A stretch of DNA of 64,000 nt from Beggiatoa alba B18LD (GTDB taxonomy: Bacteria; Pseudomonadota; Gammaproteobacteria; Beggiatoales; Beggiatoaceae). Below, piece by piece: positions 13,481-18,524 of this stretch. Within the stretch, counting starts at the first letter, position 1, and every line of letters begins with the position of its first letter. Both the position numbers and the translations under genes were made by a program. The stretch is from contig NZ_JH600070.1 in NCBI RefSeq assembly GCF_000245015.1, positions 3,740,684-3,804,683 of the forward strand. The letters are read 5' to 3'. Under the pieces are notes generated by a model. It saw nothing but the letters and a program-made list of their open reading frames with translations. It had not been told where the DNA came from and ran no database searches.

Positions 13481-13510
13481 GGTAAGTTTTTCTTGATAGA
13501 ATCGTGATTG

Positions 13511-13544
13511 AAAAAAACGGCGACTGAAGTCGCCGTTTTTTTTG
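13511..13544 (+). terminator. Strong intrinsic terminator
   Basis: A GC-rich stem ACGGCGAC/GTCGCCGT with a TGAA loop is flanked by seven A and eight T residues, so it can act in both directions. It ends the large secreted protein gene. Confidence 0.95.
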
Positions 13545-13656: not shown

Positions 13657-13883
13657 TAAACCCTGTTCCATCCCTTCCTCTTAAATTATCTTCACCTCTT
13701 TGTATTATTGTTTTCTAATAAATATTCGTTTTACGATAAAATAAATAATATCCAAAAGCATAGCATTACCTGCAAGTAGCGAGTCTCTTGTAGATTCGTT
13801 ATCATAAGCGTTTTTTACAACAACATCGCATGGATAACACCAACAATCATATTTCATGCACAAATCTAAAGGAGAACGGAATT

Positions 13884-14255
13884 ATGAGTAAGACGATATT
13901 AGTCGTCGATGACGAGCCCAATATCTTGCTATCTTTAGAATTTTTAATGAAGCAAGCACAATACATTGTTAAAACTGCTAAAGATGGTGAAGAAGCCTTA
14001 CAAATTGTAGAAACCACTCTCCCCGATTTAATCTTGCTTGATGTCAACATGCCGAAAAAAAGTGGTTATCAAGTCTGTGAAATCATCCGCGCAAATCCTG
14101 CTTGGAAAACAATTCGAATTGTAATGCTTACTGCAAAAGGACGTGATATCGAACGTGAAAAAGGATTAGCCCTTGGTGCGGATGAATACATTACTAAGCC
14201 ATTTGCTACACAAGAAGTCGTTGAAAAAGTTAAAGAGTTATTGGCGGATGTATGA
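13884..14255 (+). CDS. Single-domain response regulator (CheY-like receiver)
   Basis: A 123-residue receiver without an output domain. It has the acidic pair Asp9/Asp10, the phosphoacceptor Asp53, the switch Thr83 and Lys105, all canonical. An upstream frame extension exists, but AAAGGAGA directly before the ATG at 13884 fixes the start. Its stop overlaps the start of the next gene (ATGA at 14252-14255), so the two are probably translationally coupled and act together. It would signal by protein contact, perhaps with the downstream sensor-exonuclease or a phosphorelay elsewhere. Confidence 0.9.
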
Positions 14256-16342
14256 GCGCGAGAACACAATTTTGGTTAGGTTTCTTTATTGCTATCAGTG
14301 TGAACTTAACAATTTTTATCGGTGGGTGGTTTTTATTACTTGATAAGATTGTTGATTCTGAACAACGCAACGCCTTTGAAGGCTTTCTTGCTGTCGGTGG
14401 TTTTGCAAGTTTTTCTATTCTAGCGATTGTATGGATGCTGTTAGATAACAAGCTTTTTTTTCCACTACAATGGATTATTCGCGGTATAGAAATCATGTTA
14501 CACAGTAACCCCGCGCATAAACTAGAATTAAACCGCTTTCATCTGCTCACTGACCTTGCTAAATCTGTTCAAGCTTTAGGCGATAAACACCATAAGACCC
14601 GTTTAGAACTTGCACAAGCGATTGCCAGTAGTGCCGCGAAAGTAGAGGCGCAAAAGATACGTTTAGAAACCATTCTCCGTGACCTTGATAGCGGTGTGAT
14701 TGTTTGCGATACACAAGGACGAATTGTTCTTTATAACCCTGCCGCATTACATATTTTGGGCAATCACGCTGCATTAGGCTTAGGTCGTTCTATTTATGAA
14801 GTCTTTGCCCGTTCGCCTGTTGAACATACCTTAGAAATGCTACGTTTGCGCACCAGTCGGGACAAACACACGAAACAAGAAGGCGAGTTTGTATGTAGCG
14901 CGCATGATACCAATAGCCTCTATCATTGTCGTCTTGCTCGTTCATTTGAACAGGACAACGAAACAGGTTTTGTCTTAGCTTTTAATGATGTAACCCAACG
15001 GCTTGAAGCCGTACAGCAACAAGAACAACAGCTATTACAACTGACAGAAAAATATCGTGCTCCCTTGGCGAATTTGCGAGCGGCTGCGGAAACCTTAGTA
15101 GAACATCCACAAATGCCACAAACCACACATGATGCTTTTATACACATCATTGTCCAAGAAAGCAGACAGTTAAGCGTCTCGTTGGAAAATATCGCCCAAG
15201 AATCTTCCCGTCTGGCAAATCATCAATGGTCTATGGCAGATGTACACTCAGACGACCTCATTAACAGCATTAACCATAAACTGCCAACCAGAAAACAGAT
15301 TATTCTAACAGGCACTGGTAATCCTTTATGGCTACATGTGGATGGTTATGCCCTGATTTGTCTCTTAACGCATTTAATTAACAAACTCCATGATTATTTA
15401 GAAATCAAGCAATTCAATATAGAGCCATTAATGGGTAATCGTCGTGTTTATTTAGACATTATTTGGCAAGGACAACCCATTTCCGACACTGTATTAGAAT
15501 CATGGTCACGGGAAACCATACCCGACATGATAGGCGCGAAGACCATGCGCGATATTCTTTATATTCATGACAGTGACTTATGGAGTCAAACCCACCGTAA
15601 AGCAAAATCTGCATTATTACGCCTGCCACTTCCTGCATCTCGTCGCCAATGGGAACAACCGCGCGAAGTGCTTGCGCCACGCCCTGAATTTTATGACTTT
15701 CAACTGCCAGAAAATGCCTTGGGTGAAATGGCTGACCGTCCATTGTCCTCTTTAGAATTCGTTGTTTTTGATACAGAAACAACAGGGCTTCGTCCTTCTG
15801 AAGGCGATGAAATTATTTCCATTGCAGGCGTGCGTGTGGTGAATGGGCGAATTTTAAGCGGGGAAGCCTTCCAATATCTGGTTAATCCGAATAAGCCAAT
15901 TCCAAAAGCCTCAATTCGTTTTCATGGCATTACAGATGACATGGTTAAAGACCAACCTATGATTCAAACCGTATTACCCAAATTTAAAACCTTCGTAGGC
16001 GATGCAGTACTGGTTGGGCACAATGTTGCGTTTGACATGAAGTTTCTTAGCATGAAAGAAGGCATAACAGGCATTCGATTTAATAATCCTGTATTAGATA
16101 CGCTTTTAATTTCTGGTTATCTTCACCCCCACACTGAAAACCATTATTTAGACAGCATTGCGGAGCGTTTAGGCGTTGATATTAGTGGACGACATACTGC
16201 CATTGGTGATGCATTAGCGACGGCAGAAGTCTTCTTACGTTTATTAGACCTATTAATTGCTCGCGGAATTACCACCTTAGGGCAAGCCGTACACGCTTCT
16301 GAAGAAATGGTCGCCGTTAAAAAACAACAAGCAAAATTCTAA
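14252..16342 (+). CDS. Membrane PAS / degenerate histidine kinase / DnaQ-type 3'-5' exonuclease fusion
   Basis: A 696-residue protein. Two membrane segments (about residues 7-29 and 45-66) are followed by a coiled linker, a PAS domain (about 130-245), a histidine-kinase-like dimerisation and ATPase-like region (about 255-475), and a C-terminal DEDDh exonuclease of the DnaQ family (about 500-680). The exonuclease residues are all present: Asp507 and Glu509 (FDTETTG), Asp595 ([10 protein letters not shown]), His648 and Asp653 (HTAIGDA). The kinase H-box reads [10 protein letters not shown], so the phosphoacceptor position is Glu266, and N- and G-boxes are not recognisable. It is therefore probably a sensor pseudokinase controlling, or anchoring, a nuclease. 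It is coupled to a receiver gene by an ATGA overlap. Confidence 0.85.
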
Positions 16343-16380
16343 ATACAGCTTATTGTTTTCTTCCTACACTTGTTCAAACA

Positions 16381-16410
16381 GGACAGTATGCTTTAAAAAG
16401 CACACTGTCC
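16381..16410 (+). other. Long stem-loop in leader of tandem thioredoxin gene
   Basis: GGACAGTATGCTTT pairs with AAAGCACACTGTCC through 14 positions with one mismatch and a tiny loop. No T tract follows, so it is not a simple intrinsic terminator. It sits 48 bp before the downstream GTG start and may affect mRNA stability or translation. Confidence 0.6.
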
Positions 16411-16457
16411 GCTGTCACGTTCTGCGATTCCTGTCTTATTTTTACGGAGAAACAGCT

Positions 16458-17441
16458 GTGAAATCAATCGTTATTGCGTTAATGCTCACTTTTTATGCAA
16501 GTCTGCTTTTTGCCGAACAGATGCCCACAACTTGGTTACAAAATCCAAGTTCATTGACTCAAGCCATAGAAAATGCACAAAAAGAAGATAAAAAAGGCAT
16601 TTTTATATTTATCACAGCTGAAAAATGTGCATTATGTAACTACATGCAAACAGTCATTTTTCCACAAGCGCAAATTGCTAATTTTTATCAACAAAACTTC
16701 ATTAATTTACAAATCAATGCAAGTGTTACCACATCTATCATTAACTTTGAAAATCAAGCAAGTACGACAACAACAGTCGCCAAACAATTAAATTCAGAGG
16801 GAAAAGCGTATCCATTAGCCCTATTTTTTAACCCGCAAGGAACACTACTTTATAGTTTTTCTGGGATTACTCAAAATCCTGAGGAATTTTTATGGCTAGG
16901 TGAATATATTCTACAGGAACACTATCAACAACAATCCTTTACTGATTATAAACAAGCACGTTATGTAAATCAGCCTACTAAAACAGGTAATAGCCAAGCC
17001 TTTTTTGATGTGACATTTGGCGATTTGCAAGCAGAACTACAAACGGCAAAAGAAAATGGTAAACAAGGGATTATGTTATTTTTTGAAATGGAAGGTTGCC
17101 CATTTTGTAAACGAATGCGCGACACCGTATTTACACAGCCCGATGTTCAACAGTTTTACAAAGAACGCTTTTTGATTTTTCCTATTGATATTTTGGGCGA
17201 TGTTGAACTGACCGATTTTGAAGGGAATACCATTAGTAGCAAAGTATTTAGTCAAACAATCAACCGTGTACGTAGCACACCTGTGATTATTTTTTATAAT
17301 TTAGCGGGTGAACCGTTATACCGCTTTACAGGAATGACCGAAGACGCACAAAGTTTTATCTGGTTAGCGGAATATGTATTATCAGGTGAATATCAACGCC
17401 AACTGTTTAAAACCTATCAACAAGCGAAACGTAATCCTTAA
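16458..17441 (+). CDS. Exported tandem thioredoxin-fold protein (SoxW/thiol-disulfide type)
   Basis: About 327 residues from a GTG start chosen because ACGGAGA (16444-16450) is 7 bp upstream and the product then begins with a signal peptide (KSIVIALMLTFYASLLFA-EQ). Two thioredoxin-like domains follow, each with a CxxC: CALC in the first and CPFC in the second. Each domain ends in a similar block (YSFSGITQNPEEFLWLGEYIL and YRFTGMTEDAQSFIWLAEYVL), showing internal duplication. Likely a periplasmic thiol-disulfide or protein-reduction role. It follows the sensor-exonuclease gene but its own hairpin leader suggests separate control. Confidence 0.8.
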   Translation: MKSIVIALMLTFYASLLFAEQMPTTWLQNPSSLTQAIENAQKEDKKGIFIFITAEKCALCNYMQTVIFPQAQIANFYQQNFINLQINASVTTSIINFENQASTTTTVAKQLNSEGKAYPLALFFNPQGTLLYSFSGITQNPEEFLWLGEYILQEHYQQQSFTDYKQARYVNQPTKTGNSQAFFDVTFGDLQAELQTAKENGKQGIMLFFEMEGCPFCKRMRDTVFTQPDVQQFYKERFLIFPIDILGDVELTDFEGNTISSKVFSQTINRVRSTPVIIFYNLAGEPLYRFTGMTEDAQSFIWLAEYVLSGEYQRQLFKTYQQAKRNP

Positions 17442-17585: not shown

Positions 17586-18524
17586 ATGACCGACAAATCC
17601 CTAGGCACATTCATCAACCCCTTCACCGATTTTGGCTTTAAAAAAATCTTCGGCAGTGAAGAAAGTAAACCCCTCCTTATCAGCTTTCTTAATGATTTAT
17701 TACCGATAAAACACAAAATTGTCAGCTTAGAATTTAAAAATATCGAAAAACTCGGCATGTTAGAAGAAGACCGACGCGCCATCTTTGATATTTATTGTCG
17801 GGATGAAAAAAATCAGGAATTCATTGTTGAATTACAACGTGCGAAACAAGAACACTTTCAAGACCGCGCTACCTATTACGCCAGCTTCTTAATTCAAGAC
17901 CAAGCCAAAAAAGGCAAATGGGACTTTGAATTAACCCCGATTTATTTCATTGGGATTTTAGACTTCTCCTTAGCCAGTTTTCCTGATGACCATTACTTAC
18001 ATTTCGGACAACTTACCGATATTTACAGTAAAGAAGTCACGTTTAAGAAATTGAACTTCATTTACATAGAAATGGCGAAATTCAAAAAGCAAGAATCCGA
18101 ATTAGCGAACCATTTGGAATGGTGGTTATATTTTCTGCGTGAACTAGTGACATTTGACGATATGCCGAGAGAATTTCAAGGGGATATTATCGAAGACGCT
18201 TTTGCCTTAGCGAAATTAGCGAACATGAGTTATGAAGACCGCCATGCGTATGAATTGAGTTTGAAATACTACCGCGATTTCATCAATGTATTAGACACAG
18301 CTAAACAGGAAGGGATTGAGATAGGGATGGAGAAGGGTATTGAGATTGGGATTGAGCAAGGTGTTAAGCAAGGTATCGAACAAGGGGTTAAACAAGGAAT
18401 TGAACAAGGCATCGAACAAGAAAGAATAAAAGTCGCAATAACACTGAAGAAAAGCAACGCCCCTCTTGAGCTTATTATGGTTGCGACGGGATTAACACGC
18501 GAAGAAATTGAACGATTAGAGTAA
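17586..18524 (+). CDS. Rpn-family PD-(D/E)XK nuclease / putative transposase
   Basis: A 312-residue protein starting with the family hallmark (FINPFTDFGFKKIFGSEESK), followed by FDIYCRDEKNQEFIVELQRA, which contains the PD-(D/E)XK core (Asp, then Glu-x-Gln). Rpn proteins promote RecA-independent recombination and DNA cleavage in E. coli. The C-terminal part has a low-complexity run of GIEIG / GVKQG / GIEQG units (about residues 240-283), then a short helical ending. The gene is bracketed by two same-orientation copies of the family A repeat, and its stop codon lies inside the right one. An ATG at 17586 gives the full conserved N terminus. Confidence 0.9.
   Translation: MTDKSLGTFINPFTDFGFKKIFGSEESKPLLISFLNDLLPIKHKIVSLEFKNIEKLGMLEEDRRAIFDIYCRDEKNQEFIVELQRAKQEHFQDRATYYASFLIQDQAKKGKWDFELTPIYFIGILDFSLASFPDDHYLHFGQLTDIYSKEVTFKKLNFIYIEMAKFKKQESELANHLEWWLYFLRELVTFDDMPREFQGDIIEDAFALAKLANMSYEDRHAYELSLKYYRDFINVLDTAKQEGIEIGMEKGIEIGIEQGVKQGIEQGVKQGIEQGIEQERIKVAITLKKSNAPLELIMVATGLTREEIERLE

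Follow-up and report, generated by a model that had tools for sequence, protein, structure and literature searches.

A membrane-anchored pseudo-histidine-kinase fused to a DEDDh exonuclease and coupled to a single-domain receiver in Beggiatoa alba, a candidate nucleolytic output of two-component signalling

Pseudokinases that read receiver domains and exonucleases that are linked to the CrbS/R two-component system are each already known. In Caulobacter, the catalytic core of the pseudokinase DivL, which combines PAS domains with a DHp-CA core devoid of the phospho-accepting histidine, reads the phosphorylated form of the single-domain receiver DivK and relays to CckA (PMC4211667). In the CrbS/R (MxtR/ErdR) system, a hybrid SSF-type sensor kinase (CrbS) and a LuxR-type regulator (CrbR) share one physiological setting with acs, an SSF symporter, a DUF294 protein and a DEDDh exonuclease. 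The exonuclease gene of P. putida, pp_0353, lies downstream of pp_0354 (DUF294/CBS type) in one operon. MxtR/ErdR has pp_0354 among its targets, and a strain deleted for pp_0353 is impaired with pyruvate as the growth substrate but not with acetate (PMC9927547). Likewise, the DUF294-type protein Pflu5625 of P. fluorescens belongs to the CrbS/R regulon (PMC5715377). Phosphorylation of MxtR is inhibited by ubiquinone (PMC7918813), and DUF294 has been classed as GlnD/E-like (PMC3710099).

The protein described here resembles these systems in part. It shares the dead core and the receiver with DivL and DivK, but DivL carries no enzyme, whereas the present core is joined to an exonuclease and has lost its ATP motifs as well. 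The TM-PAS-DHp-CA layout is that of WalK/VicK-type PAS histidine kinases, from which it differs in lacking the phospho-accepting histidine and the ATP site and in having a C-terminal nuclease. The nuclease resembles PolC-type and DnaQ epsilon exonucleases (2p1j, 2ido) in fold and in all five catalytic residues, but it has a membrane sensor architecture and no polymerase partner. Compared with CrbS/R, the receiver lacks an output domain, and the exonuclease comes from another lineage and forms one protein with a pseudokinase. Searches of the open-access literature found no description of a histidine kinase/DnaQ fusion and nothing relevant for DUF294 combined with an exonuclease and a symporter.

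The window, i.e. the whole stretch of DNA analysed, comprises 64,000 nucleotides of Beggiatoa alba B18LD (contig NZ_JH600070.1, positions 3,740,684 to 3,804,683). Numbered from its first nucleotide, the locus contains the following features:

13509 to 13544, plus strand: terminator-like hairpin (16-pair stem and T tract; pattern match only), setting the receiver and fusion genes apart from the gene upstream
13884 to 14255, plus strand: single-domain receiver (REC), 123 aa (Response_reg, E 9.5e-30)
14252 to 16342, plus strand: open reading frame of the membrane PAS-pseudokinase-DEDDh exonuclease fusion, 696 aa
14273 to 14446, plus strand: two N-terminal membrane helices with a very short outside loop, residues about 8-65 (hydropathy and model helices)
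14660 to 15001, plus strand: PAS domain, residues 137-250 (Pfam PAS_9, 2.7e-09)
14993 to 15214, plus strand: DHp-like helical hairpin, residues 248-321 (matched to the core of the SSF-fused kinase by profile-profile comparison)
15236 to 15637, plus strand: CA-like domain with ATP motifs lost, residues 329-462 (alignment, Foldseek)
15761 to 16234, plus strand: DEDDh 3'-5' exonuclease domain, residues 504-661 (RNase_T, PF00929, 3e-38, full model)
15770, 15776, 16034, 16193 and 16208, plus strand: catalytic codons of Asp507, Glu509, Asp595, His648 and Asp653

Ten bp downstream of the fusion lies a gene for a twin thioredoxin-like domain protein (16353-17441, plus strand), possibly co-transcribed; such a gene also adjoins the fusion in a genome of the same genus (L002). 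It is followed by a gene for a protein that by eye is Rpn/PD-(D/E)XK transposase-like, with a repeated IEQGVKQG-type stretch near its C-terminus (17586-18524, plus strand).

An earlier note, made from the sequence alone, had proposed two membrane helices, a PAS domain, a kinase-like region and an intact exonuclease, and all four were recovered. Hydropathy gave two membrane segments (residues about 5-31 and 41-65), matching the long N-terminal helices of the structure model (residues 2-30 and 36-84). The full-length model, computed from a five-sequence alignment, had a mean pLDDT of 71.7 and a pTM of 0.38, so that confidence is at the level of domains only; it showed, in order, the two membrane helices, the PAS domain (strands within residues 148-246), a two-helix DHp (residues 248-284 and 290-321), a CA-like alpha/beta domain and a DEDDh exonuclease fold (residues 502-670). 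Foldseek matched the PAS-kinase part of this model best to WalK/VicK and the C-terminus to PolC/epsilon exonucleases.

Homologues were collected from class and phylum samples with a profile of the kinase-like region, and a protein was counted as a fusion when it matched the pseudokinase profile at E < 1e-13 and the exonuclease at E < 1e-20. This yielded 61 fusion homologues, which kept the architecture at identities down to 23% and therefore rule out a lone oddity, a gene-fusion artefact or chance. They form 49 clusters at 70% identity with a mean pairwise identity of 37%, and the residue pattern holds across the clusters. As judged by this set, the fusion is conserved across many Pseudomonadota. 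Among homologues with a name, the nearest was found in a Beggiatoa sp. MAG (L021, 59-60% identity), while plasmid-borne members carry generic NCBI names ('exonuclease domain-containing protein', 'DNA polymerase III subunit epsilon').

With regard to the kinase-like region, Pfam gave only a sub-threshold match to HisKA (E 0.17) and none to HATPase. When the fusion profile was aligned by hhalign with the SSF-type kinases encoded nearby, the match nevertheless covered the whole core (probability 99, E 4.9e-18), and it placed Glu266 (codon 15047-15049) on the phospho-accepting histidine, Trp405 on the G1 aspartate and Lys378 on the second N-box asparagine, while the G2 glycine motif was absent from the fusion. 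Kinase chemistry is thus gone, whereas the fold and a DHp surface remain; the docking-side positions R+3, R+10, A+11, E+14 and L+16 are still like those of the SSF-type kinase. Modelled alone (mean pLDDT 77), the kinase core matched DHp-CA cores in Foldseek (E 5e-10), including that of DivL (4q20). The earlier note had placed Glu266 at the histidine position, and this assignment can now be extended: by these alignments the region is an entire DHp and CA core minus the phospho-acceptor and the ATP site. It has the DHp-CA fold of a class I sensor histidine kinase and lacks the phospho-accepting histidine and the N, G1 and G2 ATP motifs, for which reason a canonical kinase was dropped as an interpretation.

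The same losses were found throughout the family. The phospho-accepting histidine was kept in 0/61 fusions, as retrieved with a pseudokinase profile that might miss fusions with an intact but divergent kinase (neighbouring canonical kinases were matched, with weaker scores). An acidic residue occupied the position in 44/61 (Glu in 37, Asp in 7), the G1 aspartate was replaced by tryptophan in 60 of the 61, and the second N-box asparagine was retained in three. No homologue with both the histidine and the ATPase boxes was seen. In the PAS domain, by comparison, Asn162 and Gly176 were invariant (61/61).

The exonuclease domain presents the opposite picture. All five DEDDh residues are kept in 61/61 fusions, which implies selection on catalysis, and the domain is apparently a working enzyme. 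It matched the PolC exonuclease 2p1j (9.3e-30) and superimposed on E. coli epsilon with an rmsd of about 2.2, PolC and epsilon being its closest solved relatives. Loss is limited to one genus, whose members (L105 8075-10243, L106 509-2734 and L107 8067-10190) retain the TM-PAS-pseudokinase architecture without the catalytic residues; the nuclease is thus dispensable in one lineage and its residues are invariant elsewhere. An anti-phage system was also considered and rejected, as the PADLOC matches concerned only the DEDDh domain and the receiver fold, both of them generic.

The receiver, whose start is likely the ATG at 13884 rather than that at 13830, has its stop at 14255 and thereby overlaps the ATG of the fusion (14252-14254) in an ATGA, as the earlier note had observed; a promoter scan gave results at chance level. 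It is unique in its own genome, where the next best receiver is 40% identical. A receiver-only gene was found just upstream of the fusion in 47 of the 58 loci with room for one, the ATGA-type overlap is present in several lineages, and the phospho-acceptor aspartate and the lysine are intact in 48/48 receivers found upstream of fusions. About a fifth of the fusion loci have no adjacent receiver. In two genomes (G086/G217) a second fusion copy lies beside an SSF symporter without receiver or kinase (L087 7629-9881, L091 8533-10758). A receiver type specific to the fusion was rejected, since receivers at the fusion-less loci L177, L181 and L182 share the same helix-1 signature.

The combination of an SSF-type kinase and a receiver-only protein is widespread without the fusion, as seen at 20 sampled loci (L177-L196). 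All 20 have a receiver gene next to the kinase. In 19 of these, a receiver-only protein of the same kind adjoins an intact SLC5/SSF-fused histidine kinase, and the alignment comprised these 19 neighbours, which are short or homologous receivers; the neighbour in L183 (a 232-residue frame of low score) was left out, and that in L179 was an outlier by score and sequence. Fusion loci add the fusion to this pair, the SSF-type kinase lying within 3 kb of it in 27/45 loci with enough flank. Because of these two observations, the receiver very probably has a kinase of its own, with the fusion as a third component to which the receiver is not a private partner. The contrast that the earlier note drew with a classical two-component pair is therefore not quite apt. 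Its putative signal-regulated nuclease, with the receiver as regulator, is supported in part, by the universal loss of the histidine, the universal exonuclease residues and the recurrent upstream receiver.

Within the family to which the window belongs (19 genomes), the receiver was present in 4/4 genomes with the fusion and 0/15 others, and the SSF-type kinase in 3/4 and 0/15, respectively, counts that ignore shared ancestry. In one genome (G014) the receiver and the fusion are unlinked, the receiver being on another contig. In the window genome the SSF-type kinase (G000:C2:2840056-2842782) is located about 0.9 Mb from the fusion with no receiver among its neighbours, and no LuxR-type CrbR output regulator is found at the window locus, where the receiver is receiver-only.

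The wider gene company includes genes of acetate uptake. Of the 45 loci with enough flank, 31 have DUF294 within 5 kb of the fusion and 24 have an SSF symporter no more than 6 kb away, and acetyl-CoA synthetase (acs) is found in 17/63 fusion stretches. In Marivivens the genes are arranged as acs-DUF4212-symporter-DUF294-hypothetical-receiver-fusion, and in Paracoccus denitrificans PD1222 as DUF294-hypothetical-kinase-receiver-fusion (PDEN_RS25395 to RS25415). Company of the kinase and of acs or the symporter is thus common across fusion homologues, whereas these genes are dispersed in the window genome.

DUF294 genes differ in their neighbours depending on the fusion. At loci without it, a stand-alone DEDDh exonuclease follows DUF294 in 24/30 cases (loci chosen for their top scores and not at random), compared with 0/41 DUF294 genes in fusion loci; at one further locus (L093), where the DUF294 copy is cut by the end of the stretch, both the fusion and a stand-alone exonuclease are present. 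On this basis, two exonuclease lineages seem to fill the same place beside DUF294, the fused domain replacing the stand-alone one. The two are not orthologous, as judged by an exonuclease tree in which 22 of the 24 DUF294-partner enzymes form a separate group (100/99) with the fused ones elsewhere, the exceptions being two long branches (L005 and L172). The P. putida enzyme PP_0353, itself absent from the tree, seems to fall into the DUF294-partner lineage, and its phenotype therefore transfers to the fusion only by analogy. The window genome has a DUF294-linked stand-alone exonuclease of its own (L143 8943-9509; C2, about 985 kb), with an ActP-like symporter about 5 kb away. Its active site is partly decayed (first Asp changed to Glu, His region changed), so that in this genome the enzymatic work may fall to the fusion instead.

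The sequences support the anatomy of the fusion, the loss of kinase residues, the retention of nuclease residues, the coupling to a receiver and the association with the SSF-type kinase, DUF294, the SSF symporter and acs. From these we infer, by analogy with DivL, phosphotransfer to the receiver, docking, gating, the sign of regulation and the substrate. An SLC5/SSF-type sensor kinase, acting as a transporter-receptor, would sense a carboxylate or the redox state and phosphorylate the one-domain receiver, which would then dock on the pseudokinase at its DHp-like hairpin. The core, its kinase chemistry lost, would serve as a docking and transmission module, and the docked receiver together with the PAS domain would alter the dimer and thereby switch the C-terminal exonuclease on or off. 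The setting would likely be an acetate/pyruvate switch, and near the membrane the nuclease could attack either the 3' ends of RNA or small nucleotide products. We give this model about an even chance of being correct. Its sharper form, in which two-component phosphorylation directly gates the membrane-tethered exonuclease through the dead core and so provides the transporter-type kinase with a nucleolytic output beyond transcription, we hold to be somewhat less probable than that. The loci without an adjacent receiver and the genus with a decayed exonuclease count against the model.

The loci without an adjacent receiver, and the occurrence of the receiver without the fusion, would fit an exonuclease controlled solely by its PAS domain and membrane part (e.g. 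by redox state or quinone), with the pseudokinase as a passive dimer scaffold and the co-transcribed receiver serving the SSF-type kinase. The invariant PAS residues and the ubiquinone inhibition of MxtR agree with this, but the tight ATGA-type coupling in several lineages, the co-occurrence of receiver and fusion even where unlinked, and the DHp surface conserved despite the lost kinase chemistry make it unlikely. Since the receiver occurs without the fusion it could indeed have other targets, and the pseudokinase might then merely sequester the phospho-receiver from one of them while the nuclease is constitutive or secondary; the genus that keeps the pseudokinase beside a decayed exonuclease points in this direction, whereas the DEDDh residues invariant elsewhere argue against it, and we regard it as slightly less probable again than control by the PAS domain.

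The association with DUF294 lends itself to another explanation, in which the DUF294 nucleotidyltransferase attaches nucleotides to some protein or RNA within the acetate system and the fused exonuclease takes this mark off again, its substrate not being bulk RNA. The proximity of DUF294, the exchange of stand-alone enzymes for fused ones of another lineage and the GlnD/E-like classification are consistent with this. In the window genome, however, DUF294 lies far from the fusion beside an exonuclease of its own that is partly decayed, and the locus set was top-scoring rather than random. To our knowledge there is also no precedent for a DEDDh enzyme that removes protein-bound nucleotides, and we consider this explanation improbable, on a par with control by the PAS domain. 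A housekeeping DnaQ-type proofreading or repair exonuclease with an incidental sensor-like N-terminus is suggested by its closest solved relatives, but the membrane anchor, the neighbouring genes and a position in the tree away from the remaining DnaQ-like exonucleases found in the same family and class make it very improbable.

The fusion may represent an unexplored way of switching a nuclease when a bacterium changes its carbon source. If the model is true, bacterial two-component signalling would have a direct nucleolytic effector, the acetate switch would gain a second output besides transcription, and the recurrence of DEDDh exonucleases and DUF294 proteins in CrbS-like settings would find an explanation. 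The fusions also bring a widespread family of pseudo-histidine-kinases that are linked to receivers and whose enzyme output can be measured. With homologues present in cultured bacteria, Paracoccus denitrificans PD1222 for instance, this family is testable.
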